Positions 15,549 through 26,523 of a stretch of DNA of 64,000 nucleotides are shown piece by piece. The notes under the pieces were generated by a model, which saw only the letters and a program-made list of their open reading frames with translations, was not told the DNA's origin and made no database searches. The DNA is from Streptomyces showdoensis (lineage in GTDB: Bacteria > Actinomycetota > Actinomycetes > Streptomycetales > Streptomycetaceae), in contig NZ_BAAAXG010000029.1 of NCBI RefSeq assembly GCF_039535475.1, positions 1 through 64,000 of the forward strand, in the 5' to 3' direction. The translations under genes and the position numbers were made by a program. How positions within the stretch are numbered: position 1 is the first letter of the stretch; each line of letters begins with the position of its first letter.

Positions 15549-15899
15549 TGCCCCGAGGCCGTCGGCCGCCGCATCACGGGAACGGCCCGACGCGCCCTCA
15601 ACCGCCACCGTCGTCGGACGACCCGCGGCCGCGCCCCGCGCCCGGCGCGCCACTGACCTGACCGAGTCCCGCGCGCCCTCCTGGGCGACGGTGCCGGCCA
15701 CAGGAACCGGCCCCACCCCTTCCGCCTTCGGTCGCTCACACGTGCCGGAGCGGCTCGTGATGGCCGGAAGTCTGCGTCGCGTGACGAAGACTCGATGGCC
15801 GCAACACGTAACGTCCGTCAGGCCGTTTTGACGGGAGTGGGGTCGGGAAGAGGTTGGCGGTGCGGGACGGGGGATCAAGGACCGACACCAGGGGGAATC
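15549..15899 (+). promoter_or_regulatory. Gap with the probable promoter region of the patatin-kinase pair
   Basis: I see no coding frame worth keeping. Close to the patatin gene there is an inverted repeat CCGTCA (15815-15820) / TGACGG (15829-15834), followed by about 65 bp of leader and a GGGGGAA ribosome site 2 bases before ATG 15900. The repeat may be an operator; this is inference from position. Confidence 0.35.
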
Positions 15900-17012
15900 A
15901 TGCGGACCGACGATGCCGAGGGCACGCCCGAGTACTGGGATCCGGCGCATCCGGTCCTGAAGATCCTGCGCGCCCGGCGGGACTCCGGGAGCCTGCCGGG
16001 GCAGCGGACCGACGGCGCACGGGTCGCCCTGGCCGTCGAGGGCGGCGGCATGCGCGGGGTGATCTCGGCGGCGATGCTGTCCCAACTGGAGGACTACGGC
16101 TACAAGAACGCCTTCGACGTGGTGTACGGCTGCTCCGCCGGCGGGATCAACGGCGCCTACTTCCTCGCCGGCGAGACCTGGTACCCGCTGTCGATCTACT
16201 ACGACGACCTGACGACCAAGCGGTTCGTCGACTTCTCCCGACCGCTGCGCCGGCGCCCCATCCTGGACCTGTCCTACTCCTTCGACCACGTCATGGAGCG
16301 GGTGAAGCCGCTGGACTACGAGGCGGTGCTCCGTTCGCCGATTCCGCTGGCCGTCCCCGTCACCGACGTCGACGCCTTACGGACCGTGGTGCTGCGGGAG
16401 TTCTCCTCACGGCAGCACCTCAAGGACGCGTTACGCGCCTCCGCGTGGCTTCCGGTCGCCGTCCCCGGCACGGTCGCCCTGCCGGACGTGCCGCGCGCCG
16501 TCGACGGCGGCGTCCTCACCGCCCTGCCGTTCCGGCTGGCACTCGACGACGGCTGCACCCACGTCCTGTCGCTCAGCACTCGGCCGATGCGGCCGGCCGG
16601 CAGCGGGTTCAACCTGCTCCACCGCTTCACCTACCTGCACCTGGAGAAGGTGCGCCGCGGACTCGGCAGCGGCTATCTGGCGGCGATCCGCGAGAAGCAC
16701 GACGACCAGGAACGGCTGCGCCGGATGCGCACGGCGCCCGGCGCCGACGGCCCGTACGTGCTCGACCTGGCACCGCTGCCGTGGATGCCCGAGCTCAAGC
16801 GACACGAACTCAAGCACGGTCCGCTCCTCCGCCACGCCCGGATGGCCTACGGGATCGCCTTCTGCGCCACCGAGGGCAGACCGGCCGGCCTGATCCGCAG
16901 GGGAGGCATCCGTGCCATGCCGAGACTGATGGTGGTGGACAGCGCGCATGGACGATCAGGGCACCACACTGGACCGGCTGCTCGCGGCCCTGTCCGGCCT
17001 GAGGGGCTATGA
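15900..17012 (+). CDS. Patatin-like phospholipase
   Basis: The 370-residue cytoplasmic-type protein shows the complete patatin catalytic set: oxyanion loop GGGMRG (48-53), nucleophile S79 in GCSAGG (the GxSxG elbow), and catalytic D202 in VDGG. These serine-aspartate enzymes cleave acyl ester bonds of membrane lipids. The C-terminal half continues with LHRFTYLHLEKVRRGLGSG. No signal peptide or membrane helix is seen. ATG 15900 is preceded by GGGGGAA. Its last 65 bp overlap the start of the kinase gene, so the two are almost certainly one transcript and may be translated together. Patatin lipases can be housekeeping enzymes, secreted virulence factors or effectors of anti-phage signalling; the kinase partner makes a regulated membrane-directed activity attractive. 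Confidence 0.9.
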   Translation: MRTDDAEGTPEYWDPAHPVLKILRARRDSGSLPGQRTDGARVALAVEGGGMRGVISAAMLSQLEDYGYKNAFDVVYGCSAGGINGAYFLAGETWYPLSIYYDDLTTKRFVDFSRPLRRRPILDLSYSFDHVMERVKPLDYEAVLRSPIPLAVPVTDVDALRTVVLREFSSRQHLKDALRASAWLPVAVPGTVALPDVPRAVDGGVLTALPFRLALDDGCTHVLSLSTRPMRPAGSGFNLLHRFTYLHLEKVRRGLGSGYLAAIREKHDDQERLRRMRTAPGADGPYVLDLAPLPWMPELKRHELKHGPLLRHARMAYGIAFCATEGRPAGLIRRGGIRAMPRLMVVDSAHGRSGHHTGPAARGPVRPEGL

Positions 17013-19353
17013 CGACCCCGAGGCGGGCCGGTTACGGGACCTCCTCGGACTTCCCGCCGACGGCCGGCCGGAGACGGCCCGGCACAAGGCCAGCCGCCTC
17101 GGGCTGTGGCGGCGGCTCCTGCACGACATACCGCTGGACGAGCGGTCCTTCGACGACCGCTTCGGCCCCGGCGGCAGGCAGGGCACGATCACCGCGCTGG
17201 CCTCCTGGTGCCTCGGGTACCGCGGGTGGACCGGCCGGCAGCGGGCCGGCCGGTCCGCACAGGCCGAGCCGCTCGGCCAGGCGGAGCTCTTCGGCTTCGT
17301 CACCCTGTTCCTGCTGACGCTGCTCGGCCTCGCCGAATCGGAGGCCCAGCGCTCGCTCTCACCCACGGGCGCCGGCGCCGGCCAGGGCGGCCGGGCGCTG
17401 ACGCACGACTGCGGCGGTGTCTGCGGAGTCCTGGTCGAGGAGGTCGCGGTCGCCGAGGTCATCGCCGACGTGTACAGCCCCGAGCGGGAGCCCGCCGGGC
17501 GCCGCCCGCCCGTGGCCGGGGGCACCGCGGCCCGCGAGTGGCGGGCGATGCAGCGCAAGCTGCGCTTCCACCGCCACGGCAGCACCTCGATGATCCTGCG
17601 GGGCAGCACCGCGGACGCCGTCCACGGCACCCGCCCGGAGTTCGCCCTGAAGTTGATCCTGTACCCGTTCACCCGGATCGCGACCCTCGCCCAGGCCACG
17701 CGCGGCTACGCGGAGACGTACGGCACGGCGAGCACCGGAGCCCGTCACCTGGTGCGGGTCTGGGCCAGCTTCGACAGCTGGATCCTGATGGACTTCGTCG
17801 AGGGCAGAACGCTCGCCGAACTCGTCCGCGAGGAGGCGGACCGGGAGCCGGCCGACGGGCGGCGGGCGTCCCCGCTCAGCCTCGACCTCGACCGGCTCCG
17901 GGACAAGGGGCTGCTGCTCTTCGACGCACTGGAGGAGCTCCAGCGCATCGCGCGGGAGGACCCGGTGCGCGGCGGACCCAAGGGCGTGCACGCGGACCTC
18001 ACTCCCTCCAACATCATCGTGTCCGCGTCCGACGGCACCTTCAAACTCGTCGACCTCGGCCGCAACTACCTCTACACCCACACGGTCACCGGCACCGGCG
18101 GCGCCGAAGCCCGCTACATCGCCCCCGAGGTCAGGGCCGGGGAGACCGACATCGCCCGGGCGGACCTGTATTCGCTCGGCCGGCTGCTCATCCTCTTCGG
18201 CACCGGGCAGGCGGGAGCCGAGGGAGTCGTACCGGACATCTTCTACATGCGCGCCACGCTCCTGGCCCGCTTCCTCGAAGACCTCGTCGACGCCGCCCCG
18301 GAGCGCCGGCTGCTCCTCTTCTCCCCCGGAACCGACCCGGCGCACACGTTCGCCCGGCTGAAGGACGCCTTCCTGGCCGAGCTCGAGATGGTGCAGGCCG
18401 CCGAGCAGGGCGAGAGCGTCCTGCGGGTCGAGACCGGCTGGCGCGCCTGGCGCGAGCTGCTCCGCCCGCTGGCCGGCGACCCGGGGCGCGAGTGGCGGCT
18501 GTGGCGGATGCGCAGACAGCGGAGCGAGCGCGCGGAACCGGGGCGCGGCTCGTTCGCCAACTGGCTGCTCGCCTGGTCGCTGCTGTCGGCGGCGATCTGG
18601 GCGGTGACGAACACCGTGGTCATCACCTGGATCCTGCGGGACCTGGACCTCTCGTGGGGCAACAACCTGGTCGCCCTGGTGCAGCGGGCCGCCGGGACCC
18701 CCGAGGGTCTCCCGATCGTCGACTCGTGGCGGCGCGACGACTACCGGGTGCCGGACTTCCAGGCCAACCTCCCGGCCCGGATGGTCGGGCTGTCGTACGC
18801 GATCGCGGCGCCGAAGTACTACCAGATGCTGTTCTCCGGTCTGACGCCCCTCGCCATCGGGTGGCGGGCCGGAGCGCTGACCCGGCTGGCCGTGGCGACG
18901 GAGGTGATCATGCGCCTGATGGCCTTCGTACCCTGTCTGCTCGTGCTGGCGATCACCCTCGTCGAACCCCGCTGGTGGCCGCTCAACTCCGCGATCGGGC
19001 AGATCCTGACGTGGCTGGCGAACGTGTTCACCCTGGCCTACATCCACGCGGTCATCCGCCGCTCCCGACGCCTCGGGATCAGCACGCTCCCCGCCGAGGA
19101 CGACAAGATCACCGGCCTCTCCGCGTTCTCCCAGTGGGTACCCACCTCGCTCTTCTACTGCGTGGTCGTCATGACCATCGGCACGGCCCTCTACCTGCAG
19201 CTCCTCCAGGACGTGTACGTCTACGCGTCCGCCGTGACCGCGACCAACCTCTTCCTCTTCTACGCCATCAAGTGCGGCATCGGCGGCCCGCCGATCCGCG
19301 TCGCGATCGTCCGCGCCTGCCTGGCCGCGGAACGCGTGGGGCGGTTCGGGTGA
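16948..19353 (+). CDS. Large transmembrane protein kinase-like protein
   Basis: The protein has 801 residues. Residues 1-110 form a novel-looking helical N-domain, and a hydrophobic stretch near 115-132 (FGFVTLFLLTLLGLAES) follows. Residues about 190-470 are a Ser/Thr kinase fold with its key residues kept: K235 in FALKLI, H348-A-D350 and N355 in HADLTPSNI, D369 in DLG (for DFG), and APE. A glycine-containing strand GSTSMILRG stands for the P-loop. From about 530 there are five or six membrane helices (for example NWLLAWSLLSAAIWAV, AFVPCLLVLAITLV and FYCVVVMTIGTALYL). The topology differs from usual PknB-type kinases, which have one helix and extracellular PASTA domains. The overlap with the patatin gene implies joint action. 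The substrate is unknown; the lipase itself is one candidate. Confidence 0.8.
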   Translation: MDDQGTTLDRLLAALSGLRGYDDPEAGRLRDLLGLPADGRPETARHKASRLGLWRRLLHDIPLDERSFDDRFGPGGRQGTITALASWCLGYRGWTGRQRAGRSAQAEPLGQAELFGFVTLFLLTLLGLAESEAQRSLSPTGAGAGQGGRALTHDCGGVCGVLVEEVAVAEVIADVYSPEREPAGRRPPVAGGTAAREWRAMQRKLRFHRHGSTSMILRGSTADAVHGTRPEFALKLILYPFTRIATLAQATRGYAETYGTASTGARHLVRVWASFDSWILMDFVEGRTLAELVREEADREPADGRRASPLSLDLDRLRDKGLLLFDALEELQRIAREDPVRGGPKGVHADLTPSNIIVSASDGTFKLVDLGRNYLYTHTVTGTGGAEARYIAPEVRAGETDIARADLYSLGRLLILFGTGQAGAEGVVPDIFYMRATLLARFLEDLVDAAPERRLLLFSPGTDPAHTFARLKDAFLAELEMVQAAEQGESVLRVETGWRAWRELLRPLAGDPGREWRLWRMRRQRSERAEPGRGSFANWLLAWSLLSAAIWAVTNTVVITWILRDLDLSWGNNLVALVQRAAGTPEGLPIVDSWRRDDYRVPDFQANLPARMVGLSYAIAAPKYYQMLFSGLTPLAIGWRAGALTRLAVATEVIMRLMAFVPCLLVLAITLVEPRWWPLNSAIGQILTWLANVFTLAYIHAVIRRSRRLGISTLPAEDDKITGLSAFSQWVPTSLFYCVVVMTIGTALYLQLLQDVYVYASAVTATNLFLFYAIKCGIGGPPIRVAIVRACLAAERVGRFG

Positions 19354-20597: not shown

Positions 20598-21188
20598 TCA
20601 CCGTCGTTCGCCGGTGACGGCACCGGCCTTGGCAACGCCCTCCCCGCCCAGCGCCGAGGGCGTGGGATAGGGGCGCTCTACGGGGAACAGCCGAGGCGCC
20701 TTGGCCGCGTGTCCGCTCTGTATGAGTGCCGATGCCTTCCGAACCTTGGGGGTGAGGTCGGTGAGGCTGACGATCCAGTCGTCGTTGAACGTACGGATCA
20801 GGTGACGGCCGATGCCGACCTGGATGCTGTAGTGGTTCAGTGCCGCTCCGCGCGGCGAGCGCTCCGGGTCCCACTGGACGTGGACGGCCGCCTGGGCCAC
20901 CGCTGCCGGGTCGGCGGTCGTCAGAACGGCCTGGGACAGGGCCTCCTCCCAGCCCTCCCGAGTGATCCGCACGGCGAGGACCCGTTCCTGGCCGGGCTTG
21001 CGGGCCCAGTTGCTGCGGTGCATCAGCCACATGAACGACGGCTTGATCCACGTCATGCGCTGGAACGAGAACGGCGCGACGAACCGGCCCGCCCGCAGTG
21101 CCGCGTCAGCGATGGCAGGCGCGTACGCCTGGTAGACCACGATCGTGCGAGCGTCGTAGTCGGCACGGATCTGATACTGGGGCGTCAT
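20598..21188 (-). CDS. DUF4291 family protein
   Basis: The conserved head [18 protein letters not shown] and the central [20 protein letters not shown] then [19 protein letters not shown] are hallmarks of DUF4291. The family is widespread in bacteria and fungi with no assigned activity. The product is 196 residues from ATG 21188 (MTPQYQ), the usual family start; an ATG at 21212 would add eight residues. The order then runs [20 protein letters not shown] and [20 protein letters not shown]. It is cytoplasmic with no membrane segment. It stands alone, divergent from the acetyltransferase gene. Confidence 0.85.
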
Positions 21189-21320
21189 ACTCGGCACCCT
21201 GCCATCCGACACCCTGACGCGACGAGCCGATTTCCCCGTGGCACCCGGCCAGGGGCCGGTGCAGGCGGGCGATCAGCGGACTCCTTCGGCGACCGGTACG
21301 AGGCGTGTGATGCTGGCTGC

Positions 21321-23889: not shown

Positions 23890-24822
23890 TCATCGGACCG
23901 GCCCGCTCGCGGGGCTTCCGGACACGCCGCCCCGGCCTCGAACCCGCCTCGCCGCCTCCTTGAGCAGCAGCAGGGCGGCGGCCGGTGCCGAGGGGCCCGA
24001 GGTGCGGATGGCCAGCGAGGCGCCCGCGCGGCGCACTGCGTCGAGGCGGAGGTGCTGGACACCGGCGAGGGCACGGACGAAGGGTCGGTACGGAGGGGCC
24101 ACGAGGGTCGGGAGAGGAGCGGCGGCCGTGAGGTCGGCGGCGGCGCGGGCGGCCTGTTCCCCGACGAGGCGCCCGAGTGCCGGGCCGGGCCGGGTGAGGT
24201 CCGCGCCGTGGCGGGCGACCGCGTCGGCGGGGACGCCGTGGCGGCCCGCCCGTACGTCCTCGGGCAGGTCCTCCAGGAAGTCGATGCGCTGCATGGCGCG
24301 GATGAGCAGGTGGCAGCCTTCCGTGAACGCCGCCCGCTCGGACGCGTCCTCGGGCGCGAGGAGGCAGGCCGTGAGCATCAGCGCGGGAAGCGAGTACTCC
24401 CGTACGTACCGCTCCAGTTCCCGGTCGTCGGCGATGGTGCGCCAGGCGACCTCGCGCTCGCAGCCCCGGAGGAAGTCGTCCACGTGGGCGCGCACGTCGG
24501 GATGGCACTCGGCGGTGCGGGCCAGGCAGCGCAGGACGGGCAGGTCGGATGTGCCGTCGGCGAGGGCCGCGCGTACGAGGCCGTCCCATTCGGCGAGCGC
24601 GGCCTTCCGTTCCTCCGGGGTGCCGCGGTCGATCCGGTCGTCGGTCTCGTGCATGAACGCGACGGCGGCGACGACGTGCGGAAGCAGGGCGGCGGGGAGC
24701 AGGGTCCGCGCCGCCGCGTACTCGGCCGCCGCGAACCTCCGTACCGCCCGTCGCTGTTCGGTGTAGTCCCGCCGCAGCCGCGGTTCCCGCACCCCGGCCC
24801 GGTCGAGGGCCCGCTTCCACAT
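23890..24822 (-). CDS. Squalene/phytoene synthase family protein
   Basis: The family signature is visible: Tyr-rich first helix, the first Asp cluster D61-D62-x-x-D65 in HETDDRIDRG and a second Asp-rich helix RIDFLEDLPEDVRAGR. They line the active site that joins two prenyl diphosphates through magnesium. The length of 310 residues is normal. ATG 24822 has GGAG 6 bases upstream. The second cluster differs somewhat from the usual NILRDVGED form, so the exact reaction is open. No other isoprenoid gene (prenyltransferase, desaturase, hopene cyclase) lies in the window, which makes this an orphan. It is divergent from the gene pair starting at 24947. Confidence 0.85.
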   Translation of the reverse strand: MWKRALDRAGVREPRLRRDYTEQRRAVRRFAAAEYAAARTLLPAALLPHVVAAVAFMHETDDRIDRGTPEERKAALAEWDGLVRAALADGTSDLPVLRCLARTAECHPDVRAHVDDFLRGCEREVAWRTIADDRELERYVREYSLPALMLTACLLAPEDASERAAFTEGCHLLIRAMQRIDFLEDLPEDVRAGRHGVPADAVARHGADLTRPGPALGRLVGEQAARAAADLTAAAPLPTLVAPPYRPFVRALAGVQHLRLDAVRRAGASLAIRTSGPSAPAAALLLLKEAARRVRGRGGVSGSPASGPVR

Positions 24823-24946
24823 GCCGGTCTCCAGTCGTCTCGTCGTCGGCTGTGAGCCTACGGCTCCGGGGGCGGAAACCCGGAGGCGCCCCCGGCCCCC
24901 CGTCTGTGAGAATCGCGGCGATGCGCGAAGGGTTCCAAGGTGGGGG

Positions 24947-25537
24947 ATGAACGAGGTCGACGACGTCTTCGAGACGCACGTGACGGTGCGGTGCCGGGAC
25001 GAGGGTGAGCTGGGCCGCCTCGGTGCCTGGGCTGCGGACCGGGATCTGAAGGTCACCACGATCGTCCTCGCGCGTGGCAGCTCCCGGGTCCAGCCGATGC
25101 TGACGCTGCGCGGCCGGGCGGGGCATCCGGCGGTGGTGTCCGGGCTGCGGGAGGCCGGTTTCGAGCCGGCGCGGGTCAAGGTGGAGACGGTGCCGTGGAG
25201 CACGGAGCCCGCGGGGCCCGGCGGGGGTTACTACGAGCACCACGTCAAGCTGGCGCTGCCCGCCGCGTACGACCGGGCGGCACTGGAGGAGCTCGTCGTG
25301 CCGCACGGCGCCCACGTGTCGTGGAACGCGCGCCGGGTCCTGGGGCCGGGTGGGCGGCACGAGCGTTTCGTGACCCGGCGGCACCCGGGGCCGGCGGACG
25401 CGGCCGGGCGCGCCTGCGACGCGCTGATCGGCGTGCTGGTCGCCGCCGGGTACGAGCCGGTGGCGGAGGAGAGGGAGTTCGTGGTCTCCGACAGCGACCT
25501 GTCGTGGGACGAGGGCTGGCTGGAGGAGGCCGTATGA
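24947..25537 (+). CDS. Conserved actinobacterial protein of unknown function, coupled to an AbiEii-like gene
   Basis: This 196-residue soluble protein is acidic, with two similar halves: FETHVTVRCRDEGELGRLGA with RGSSRVQPMLTLRGR, and YYEHHVKLALPAAYDRAALE with GRHERFVTRR. The repeated E-x-H-V strand pattern suggests a duplicated alpha/beta fold. I recognise the pattern from actinobacterial proteins lacking a named function and see no HTH of the usual AbiEi antitoxin. Its stop overlaps the start of the nucleotidyltransferase gene (ATGA), so the two are translationally coupled and probably act together. ATG 24947 is preceded by AAGGTGGGGG. Confidence 0.65.
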   Translation: MNEVDDVFETHVTVRCRDEGELGRLGAWAADRDLKVTTIVLARGSSRVQPMLTLRGRAGHPAVVSGLREAGFEPARVKVETVPWSTEPAGPGGGYYEHHVKLALPAAYDRAALEELVVPHGAHVSWNARRVLGPGGRHERFVTRRHPGPADAAGRACDALIGVLVAAGYEPVAEEREFVVSDSDLSWDEGWLEEAV

Positions 25538-26523
25538 CCGAGAAGCAGTGGGCGCCGTCCATACCGGACGGGCCGGACAGCACCACGGAACCCGCCGCCG
25601 AGCGGATCCACCGCAAGGACGACCCGCCGTACACCCTGACCGCGGGGATCGGCGAGGCCGCCTTGCGGCACCGGGTGTTCGATCCCGCGCTCAAGCACTT
25701 CGACGAGGCCTTCCGGCCCAGCGACGGGGTCGTCGAGGACCCGGAGCTGCGCGCCCGCTGGCAGGCGGCCCGGCGCGCGGCACTGGACCTCGTCCTCGCC
25801 GCCGTCGCCGGGTCCCCGTGGGCGGGCTCCCTCGTGCTGCGCGGCAGCATGCTGATGGGGGCCTGGTTCGGCGACGCCGCCCGCGCCCCGAAGGACATCG
25901 ACTTCGTCGTCGTCCCGGAGACCTGGCGCATCGAGGAGCCCCGGACCCGCACGATGCTCGACGGCATCGCCGCGTCTGCCGAGCGCCTCGCCGAGGAGCG
26001 CGGCACGGGCCTGTCGGTCTCGGCGGCGGGAGCCGTGTCCGAGTACATCTGGACGTACGAGCGGGTGCCCGGTAACCGCCTGGTCCTGCCGTGGACGGCC
26101 CCCGGGCTCCCCGGCGGCCAGGTCCAGCTCGACTTCGTCTTCAACGAGCGCCTCCCGACGCCGCCCCGCCCTGCCGAGGTCGCGGGTGTCCGTCTGCAGG
26201 CCGCGGACCGCGAGCTGTCCTTGGCCTGGAAGCTGATGTGGCTGAGCTGCGACATGTACCCGCAGGCCAAGGACCTGTACGACGCGGTCCTCCTCGCGGA
26301 GAGCTGCACCCTGCCCCTCGCCCTCCTGGAGACCGTGCTGCGCGAGGCGGACGAGTGGCCCGGCCATCCGGACGAGCCGCTGAACCCCGCCATGTTCGAG
26401 AACGCCGTCCGCGAGCTCGACTGGACGGGCTTCGACGACTCCCACCCGCACACCGATGCCGCCCGGCACGACCTCGGCACCCGTCTGCTGGCCGCCTTGG
26501 CTCCGGTGCTGGGGACGGCCTAG
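25534..26523 (+). CDS. AbiEii/AbiGii-type nucleotidyltransferase
   Basis: The 329-residue protein has the polymerase-beta nucleotidyltransferase signature LRGSMLMGAW...KDIDFVV: G104-S105, D121 and D123, with the third carboxylate D200 in QVQLDFVF. The later helix SLAWKLMWLSCDMYPQAKDL then YD matches the K...KDxYD motif of AbiEii-like toxins, which transfer nucleotides to RNA acceptors. All catalytic residues look intact. It starts inside the stop of the upstream gene. Typical AbiE pairs have a winged-helix antitoxin; here the partner is different. Toxin, phage-defence or housekeeping RNA modification are all possible. Confidence 0.85.
   Translation: MTEKQWAPSIPDGPDSTTEPAAERIHRKDDPPYTLTAGIGEAALRHRVFDPALKHFDEAFRPSDGVVEDPELRARWQAARRAALDLVLAAVAGSPWAGSLVLRGSMLMGAWFGDAARAPKDIDFVVVPETWRIEEPRTRTMLDGIAASAERLAEERGTGLSVSAAGAVSEYIWTYERVPGNRLVLPWTAPGLPGGQVQLDFVFNERLPTPPRPAEVAGVRLQAADRELSLAWKLMWLSCDMYPQAKDLYDAVLLAESCTLPLALLETVLREADEWPGHPDEPLNPAMFENAVRELDWTGFDDSHPHTDAARHDLGTRLLAALAPVLGTA

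Follow-up and report, generated by a model that had tools for sequence, protein, structure and literature searches.

A patatin-like lipase gene and an overlapping membrane-kinase gene form a mobile two-gene module in actinomycetes, probably a switchable lipid-cutting system

The DNA analysed here is a 64,000-nt stretch of Streptomyces showdoensis (contig NZ_BAAAXG010000029.1, positions 1 to 64,000, forward strand), hereafter the window; the genome measures 8.5 Mb, and the window belongs to its contig 29. An original prediction, made from the letters alone, had singled out two overlapping genes in it, one for a patatin-like lipase and one for a protein kinase with C-terminal membrane helices, as a candidate two-gene system. 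Below we describe this pair and compare it with its relatives in other genomes (L numbers denote loci and G numbers genomes). The two genes and their landmarks are laid out as follows.

15827..15899, + strand: conserved leader/promoter stretch 5' of the patatin gene; DNA homology to the L016 copy starts at 15827 (blastn; leader alignment)
15900..17012, + strand: patatin-like phospholipase (PNPLA) gene, 370 amino acids, without N-terminal hydrophobic stretch
16041..16058, + strand: oxyanion/anion-binding GGGMRG (residues 48-53), of which GGG, R and the final G are unchanged in 50/50
16134..16136, + strand: codon of the catalytic Ser79, in GCSAG; invariant in 50/50
16503..16508, + strand: codons of the catalytic Asp202 and of Gly203 (DG of the DGG motif); invariant in 50/50
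16948..17012, + strand: overlap of the patatin and kinase genes, 65 nt; equal length in 7/7 close orthologous loci
16948..19353, + strand: membrane-anchored Ser/Thr-type protein kinase gene, 801 amino acids
16948..17538, + strand: N-terminal domain of the kinase (roughly residues 1-197), without a match in Pfam; a hydrophobic stretch lies near residue 118
17650..17652, + strand: codon of the invariant Lys235 (ATP-binding lysine); 43/43
17989..18012, + strand: catalytic loop HADLTPSN, residues 348-355; H348, D350 and N355 invariant in 43/43
18052..18060, + strand: DLG motif, residues 369-371; D369 and G371 invariant in 43/43
18565..19287, + strand: C-terminal membrane domain, about residues 540-780, with about six helices (hydropathy and charge; region search)

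The patatin reading frame opens with an ATG preceded by a AGGGGGAA-type ribosome site, and its product matches PF01734 with an E-value of 4.5e-18 and 66.6 bits (cut-off 27.7). In an alignment of the 50 family members, GGGxRG (48-53), S79, G81, D202 and G203 were unchanged throughout, so that the lipase is catalytically complete, as had been claimed; the first position of the GxSxG box, residue 77, varied (G in 32, S in 10, A in 8). By its domain, Ser nucleophile, GGGxRG and DG, the protein belongs to the PNPLA family, whose motifs (GGGxRG, GxSxG, DG) are defined in PMC9095652, and lipid acyl hydrolase activity is predicted for it. The most hydrophobic 19-residue window begins at residue 42, and, judged by the missing N-terminal hydrophobic stretch, the protein looks cytosolic. 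About 20 nt 5' of the patatin start, before the ribosome site, the related loci L013-L017 and L055 carry an inverted repeat, GATCAG-N3/4-CTGATC, with both arms in L013, L014, L016 (one mismatch), L017 and L055 and a single arm in L015. The repeat, which may act as an operator or form a small hairpin, is degraded in the window, and none was seen in the stretch of L018 that was compared.

The kinase is recognised by Pfam through residues 347-420 only (PF00069, E 2.9e-7, 30.6 bits, just missing the cut-off of 31.7); the related kinase at L219 reaches 37.6 bits. Across the kinase family, K235, H348, D350, N355, D369, G371 and A392-P393-E394 were unchanged in 43/43 sequences, which bears out the K, HAD, N and DLG motifs read from the window. 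As a protein kinase it thus has the catalytic Lys, HxD...N, DxG and APE, and lacks the GxGxxG loop and the helix-C Glu. In this respect the earlier description needed refinement: the catalytic motifs stood, while the nucleotide loop is HG(T/S)TS in 37/43 (HGSTS in the window) instead of GxGxxG, and no conserved helix-C Glu was found, the best column among residues 236-275 reaching 10/43. We regard the N-lobe as unusual because of these two features. The N-terminal 200 residues yielded no family in Pfam, in line with the novel N-domain that had been proposed. Hydropathy over the family gave six C-terminal peaks (near residues 554, 621, 663, 688, 744 and 765, that at 621 weak), where five or six helices had been expected, and the charges flanking these helices fit both ends of the protein lying inside. 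A search with the membrane domain by itself, which could return only proteins of 0.55-1.75 times the kinase length, gave 42 proteins, comprising 38 known family kinases and four new ones, two of these with PF00069; none of the 42 matches of this one search placed the domain in another architecture. Among PDB entries, the closest to the single kinase sequence was PknB (E 7.9e-6) and the closest to the family profile was ULK2 (E 5.6e-13).

The overlap between the two genes measured 65 nt in the window, as predicted, and exactly 65 nt in all seven close loci (L013-L018 and L055); it was 68 nt in L019, 26 nt in L051-L053 and 4 nt in L020. The ratio of non-synonymous to synonymous substitution rates (dN/dS) for both genes was 0.10-0.42 across five pairs, and both genes are intact and under purifying constraint. 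A fusion of patatin and kinase, hinted at by long open frames, was considered and rejected: loci with both genes show two frames, and no protein among 103 kinases combined PF01734 with PF00069.

Across genomes the two genes were found side by side far more often than apart. The 43 loci collected, window included, comprised 34 same-strand pairs, one convergent pair (L109), four loci with the patatin only (L045, L108, L111, L117) and four with the kinase only (L046, L047, L219, L221), so that the partner adjoins 35/39 family patatins and 35/39 family kinases. This total also takes in Glycomyces copies found by DNA, and L021 and L022, with a short kinase stretch only, were left out of the counts. 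Searching with the patatin first gave seven close relatives in 199 Streptomyces genomes, six of them with the kinase, 21 matches above 300 bits in 150 genomes of the family that contains Glycomyces, 18 with the kinase (one tail to tail), and one further genome with the kinase, G595, in an order sample of 397. With the kinase first, eight of the 199 Streptomyces genomes were hit, six with an adjoining patatin, and among ten matches in named genomes eight were full relatives, all eight with the patatin next door. The partner therefore adjoins 25/29 patatin-first and 14/16 kinase-first family members, two sets that overlap, and the possibility raised with the prediction, that orthologues are rarely adjacent, did not hold. 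In a large protein collection, 27 of the 120 listed patatins lay on contigs sized exactly as the contig of one of the 103 kinases, compared with an average of 0.33 when the sizes were shifted.

The distribution of the pair was patchy (6/199 sampled Streptomyces genomes; 18/150 genomes of the Glycomyces-containing family). A class-wide sample gave 11/394 at E 1e-15, nine of these on the generic kinase core only; this sample and the order sample understate presence because few candidates were scored per genome (two and five, respectively). No family kinase lay near the more distant patatins (below 210 bits) in the 11 that were fetched with flanks, of 16 found. Among the pairs, L109 (5946-9735) is arranged tail to tail, the ends of its patatin gene and of its divergent kinase gene (591 bits) overlapping and the kinase keeping the catalytic residues checked, and L122-L125 combine a patatin subfamily at only ~300 bits with kinases above 900 bits. 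Likewise, the patatin was much diverged and the kinase less so in the pairs of G613, G671, G687 and G651, a pattern that hints at unequal rates or partner exchange.

The boundaries of the conserved unit coincided closely with the two genes. L016 (in S. tanashiensis) and L017 were 96% identical in DNA over 3520 nt that start 105 nt ahead of the patatin ATG and stop in the final 6-12 nt of the kinase gene, and their flanks were unrelated. Over 34 loci, a flanking gene of more than 50% identity was common to 22 of 561 locus pairs, recurring neighbours being confined to close relatives plus single genes, and the pair occupied about 24 contexts by grouping, or about 20 if each single shared gene counts. 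No third gene was common to all nine loci compared, in which six scattered gene pairs matched at 27-47% identity. A sigma-factor gene and a trypsin-like gene flank the pair in the G047 clade; among the matches listed, 61/61 sampled Streptomyces genomes matched the region of this clade, and G004, G014 and G048 (Streptomyces) have 220-250 nt where G047 holds 3.85 kb, that is, a site without the module. The site used by the pair in G718 is empty to within 10 nt in Glycomyces G729, which has its own pair elsewhere; this empty site may be a deletion scar, because one break falls inside the end of the kinase frame. At the window's own place, no clean empty site was found in relatives of the window genome. 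Near L114 (4700-10050), gaps of ~3-20 kb occur in several Glycomyces species at the place of the G718 pair, and because of these wider gaps the site may be an insertion hot spot. Integration linked to tRNA genes was considered and rejected: no tRNA gene lies in the window, and one, 5 kb off, was seen among 11 loci.

The two genes also appeared to have evolved together. Over 29 genomes, patatin and kinase tree distances correlated with r of 0.769, or a partial r of 0.651 given rpoB, a value that 0/2000 permutations reached. G733 and G729, 98.9% identical in rpoB, have kinases that are 48% and patatins that are 66.6% identical, a contrast that we take, from sequence comparison, as transfer of the pair. 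The patatin and kinase genes are an overlapping, co-inherited and co-evolving pair and a mobile two-gene module, patchy, transferable and set in unrelated flanks. Adjacency, co-evolution, a common mobile unit and the failure of PADLOC and NCBIfam to yield a matching described system strongly support the proposed two-gene system, and the pair is almost certainly a functional module.

Broken copies of the pair bear on how its two parts depend on each other. The lone patatins at L045, L108, L111 and L117 keep all catalytic residues checked, bar the variable first Gly of GxSxG, and no family kinase was found in their genomes at E 1e-30. At L045 (6808-8016, G186), an IS110-family transposase gene directly follows the patatin in the kinase's expected place. 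At L108 (6529-10246), the patatin stands just before radical-SAM, flavoprotein-like and transporter-like genes (the last two judged by eye), which look like a peptide-maturation cluster. Since intact lone patatins persist in genomes free of the kinase, the lipase appears to be tolerated without it, as would suit a lipase that stays idle until it is activated; these copies may instead be silent, or neutralised otherwise. As to the lone kinases, L219 and L221 share their genomes with a full pair, L219 having lost ~1 kb of patatin, and L046 and L047 are distant (~29-33% identical).

The explanation that we favour, at a probability of roughly 0.4, is that a sensor kinase switches on a lipase against the cell's own membrane, plausibly for phage defence. 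The kinase would be held in the cytoplasmic membrane by its six or so C-terminal helices, with the N-terminal and catalytic parts in the cytosol, and the patatin, translated from the same message, would be a lipid acyl hydrolase that is soluble in the cytosol. The joint encoding of a cytosolic lipase and a membrane kinase suggests control by the kinase over where or when the lipase acts. In the resting cell the lipase would be idle; the membrane or N-terminal part of the kinase would detect a disturbance, of which phage infection or some other insult to the envelope is the most plausible kind, and the activated kinase would then phosphorylate or recruit the patatin, which would hydrolyse the cell's own membrane phospholipids until the cell stops or dies. 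The single message, coupled translation, activation over restraint, phosphorylation of the patatin, the membrane-lipid substrate and the phage trigger are what we infer here. The parts of this scheme are not equally secure. The lipase probably acts on lipids of its own cell, and we lean towards a kinase that activates over one that restrains, while an anti-phage role seems to us slightly short of an even chance. In its fullest form the idea is of a hitherto undescribed immune system of actinobacteria: infection would be sensed at the envelope by the multi-pass membrane kinase, which would phosphorylate the patatin and so release it against the cell's own membrane, a phosphorylation-gated counterpart of the nucleotide-gated lipases of CBASS (cyclic oligonucleotide-based antiphage signalling system). 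This form we regard as doubtful.

Defence or conflict modules are typically mobile, patchy and compact, as this two-gene unit is; 41/50 patatin family members show a distant likeness to the phospholipase effectors in PADLOC (best E 4.3e-12), and the kinase core shows one to the PD-T4-6 defence kinases. Several observations weigh against a sensor kinase that commands a membrane-damaging lipase in phage defence. The unusual kinase N-lobe leaves room for a non-protein substrate, and patatin substrates extend beyond phospholipids. Neither gene strictly needs the other, since intact stand-alone copies occur, among them the kinases L046, L047, L219 and L221 with the catalytic residues checked all kept. 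The agreement between the trees partly reflects shared descent, as the distances correlate with those of rpoB (r of 0.544 for the patatin and 0.654 for the kinase). The kinase was found in none of 72,556 plasmid records, nine pattern matches to it in viral contigs were not confirmed, and 50,697 phage records held no near patatin relative; distant patatin matches turned up in 82 plasmid and 14 phage records, all below 60% identity. Finally, no clear defence island was seen in 100 flanking proteins from 11 loci, which gave few PADLOC matches, counted without a background rate.

In those 100 proteins, ten PADLOC models were matched at 1e-15, by one protein each except for a GlgB-like model (three). 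The matches that were traced are the AbiEii gene of the window, GlgB-like enzymes and the partial mad3 match in L016; the MzaA match was narrowed to L018-L020, L051 and L055 only, and the mad2 and PDC-M05A matches were not placed at a locus. The commonest Pfam families in the flanks, taken as the best 25 of 95 families, were metabolic or regulatory. Individual neighbours include a complete AbiEi/AbiEii-type pair at 24821-26523 of the window, ~5.5 kb from the module (PADLOC AbiEi E 2.7e-66 and AbiEii E 5.6e-125; Pfam AbiEii E 4.6e-22), which is a clear case of defence genes close to a copy, a DUF4291 protein at 20598-21212 (PF14124, E 2.2e-66) and, next to the module at L016 (9356-10324), a gene that partly matches the MADS defence model mad3 (residues 134-238, E 6.5e-31).

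The module could instead serve the upkeep of membrane lipids, with a kinase that senses membrane stress (from, e.g., solvents, cold or antimicrobial peptides) and adjusts the patatin so that acyl lipids are remodelled or recycled without harm to the cell. The purifying constraint on both genes, the metabolic and regulatory character of the commonest flanking families and the inheritance of the pair at one site in the G047 clade all agree with such a role, whereas the patchiness, the ~20-24 contexts and the repeated gain and loss would be unusual for housekeeping, and no third gene is common to the nine loci; on balance we consider it unlikely. A response to competition would have the pair protect against, or react to, a membrane-active compound from neighbours or from the host itself. 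The named hosts of the pair belong to the actinomycetes (Streptomyces and Glycomyces, for example), and the orphan patatin L108 adjoins radical-SAM and transporter-like genes, yet no biosynthetic gene is common across the contexts, and we think this role improbable.

We give equally little credence to a toxin-antidote pair, in which the patatin would be the toxin and the membrane kinase would keep it inactive by phosphorylation or sequestration. An overlapping, co-evolving, mobile two-gene unit would be expected of such a pair, and the lone kinases L219 and L221 occur in genomes with a full pair. It is weakened by the four lone patatins with intact motifs that persist without a family kinase, at L045 with the IS110 transposase gene in the kinase's place; moreover, toxin-antidote pairs do not typically begin with the toxin gene or include so large a membrane-bound partner. 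That the two genes are chance neighbours of unrelated function is scarcely credible: both families are also found alone, and the idea is contradicted by adjacency over many contexts, matched trees and the boundaries of the unit.

Lipase effectors of bacterial immunity are typically opened by small signals, e.g. cyclic nucleotides. If the sensor-kinase explanation is true, a compact, transferable membrane kinase-lipase pair would be a new way of gating membrane damage. A function would also be gained for the kinase family, whose membrane domain the single search found in proteins of this kind alone. The pair is probably a so far uncharacterised switchable lipid-cutting system of actinobacteria, possibly an antiviral one. 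A natural test set is at hand in the full pairs, the natural losses of either gene and the matched module-free sites in related strains.

Comparison with described systems places the two proteins at some distance from their nearest counterparts. Neither reaches a curated NCBIfam cut-off, and the PADLOC matches are weak and confined to shared domains. CapV, the PNPLA effector of CBASS, is likewise a soluble patatin with GGGxRG, GxSxG and DG, but the profile likeness is weak, the window patatin reaching 25.9 bits where NCBIfam sets its equivalog cut-off at 200. The constant partner here is the kinase, the patatin and kinase being all that the nine loci have in common, and no PADLOC model for a CBASS cyclase (CD-NTase) was matched among the 100 flanking proteins at 1e-15. 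Of solved structures, the patatin profile hit only PlpD of Pseudomonas (PDB 5fqu) at 1e-3, with E 1.1e-6 and over the motif regions alone. PlpD is secreted and consists of two parts; the window patatin has no N-terminal hydrophobic stretch.

On the kinase side, the PASTA kinases PknB and Stk1 have the HxDLxPxN, DxG and APE motifs in common with the window kinase. They are anchored by a single membrane helix, whereas the window kinase has a multi-helix membrane part, a different N-lobe and no PASTA match, and scores 31 bits against a cut-off of 450, so that the layout is indeed unlike that of PknB-type kinases, as first suggested. Mokosh combines a kinase domain with a PLD-family 'phospholipase' domain and a helicase, and so also brings kinase and 'phospholipase' together in one defence system; here the lipase is a patatin, Pfam gave no helicase or PLD match, and the MkoA model matches the kinase core only, at 21.3 bits. 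In Stk2 of Staphylococcus and PD-T4-6, a kinase is also the switch of possible self-harm; the review PMC12926258 describes Stk2 as an abortive-infection kinase that acts on many targets. The likeness of the kinase core to the PD-T4-6 defence kinases is distant (up to E 1e-10) and that to Stk2 fainter (0.0067); the matches are confined to about residues 345-425 and fall short of the full models, and the window kinase differs in its Pfam-less N-domain, its six or so C-terminal helices and its partner lipase. No paper on the patatin-kinase pairing came up among those listed in searches of the open-access literature (subscription papers and preprints lay outside this scope). The domains are known and their logic plausibly so, and the pairing is probably new relative to the libraries searched and the open-access literature.

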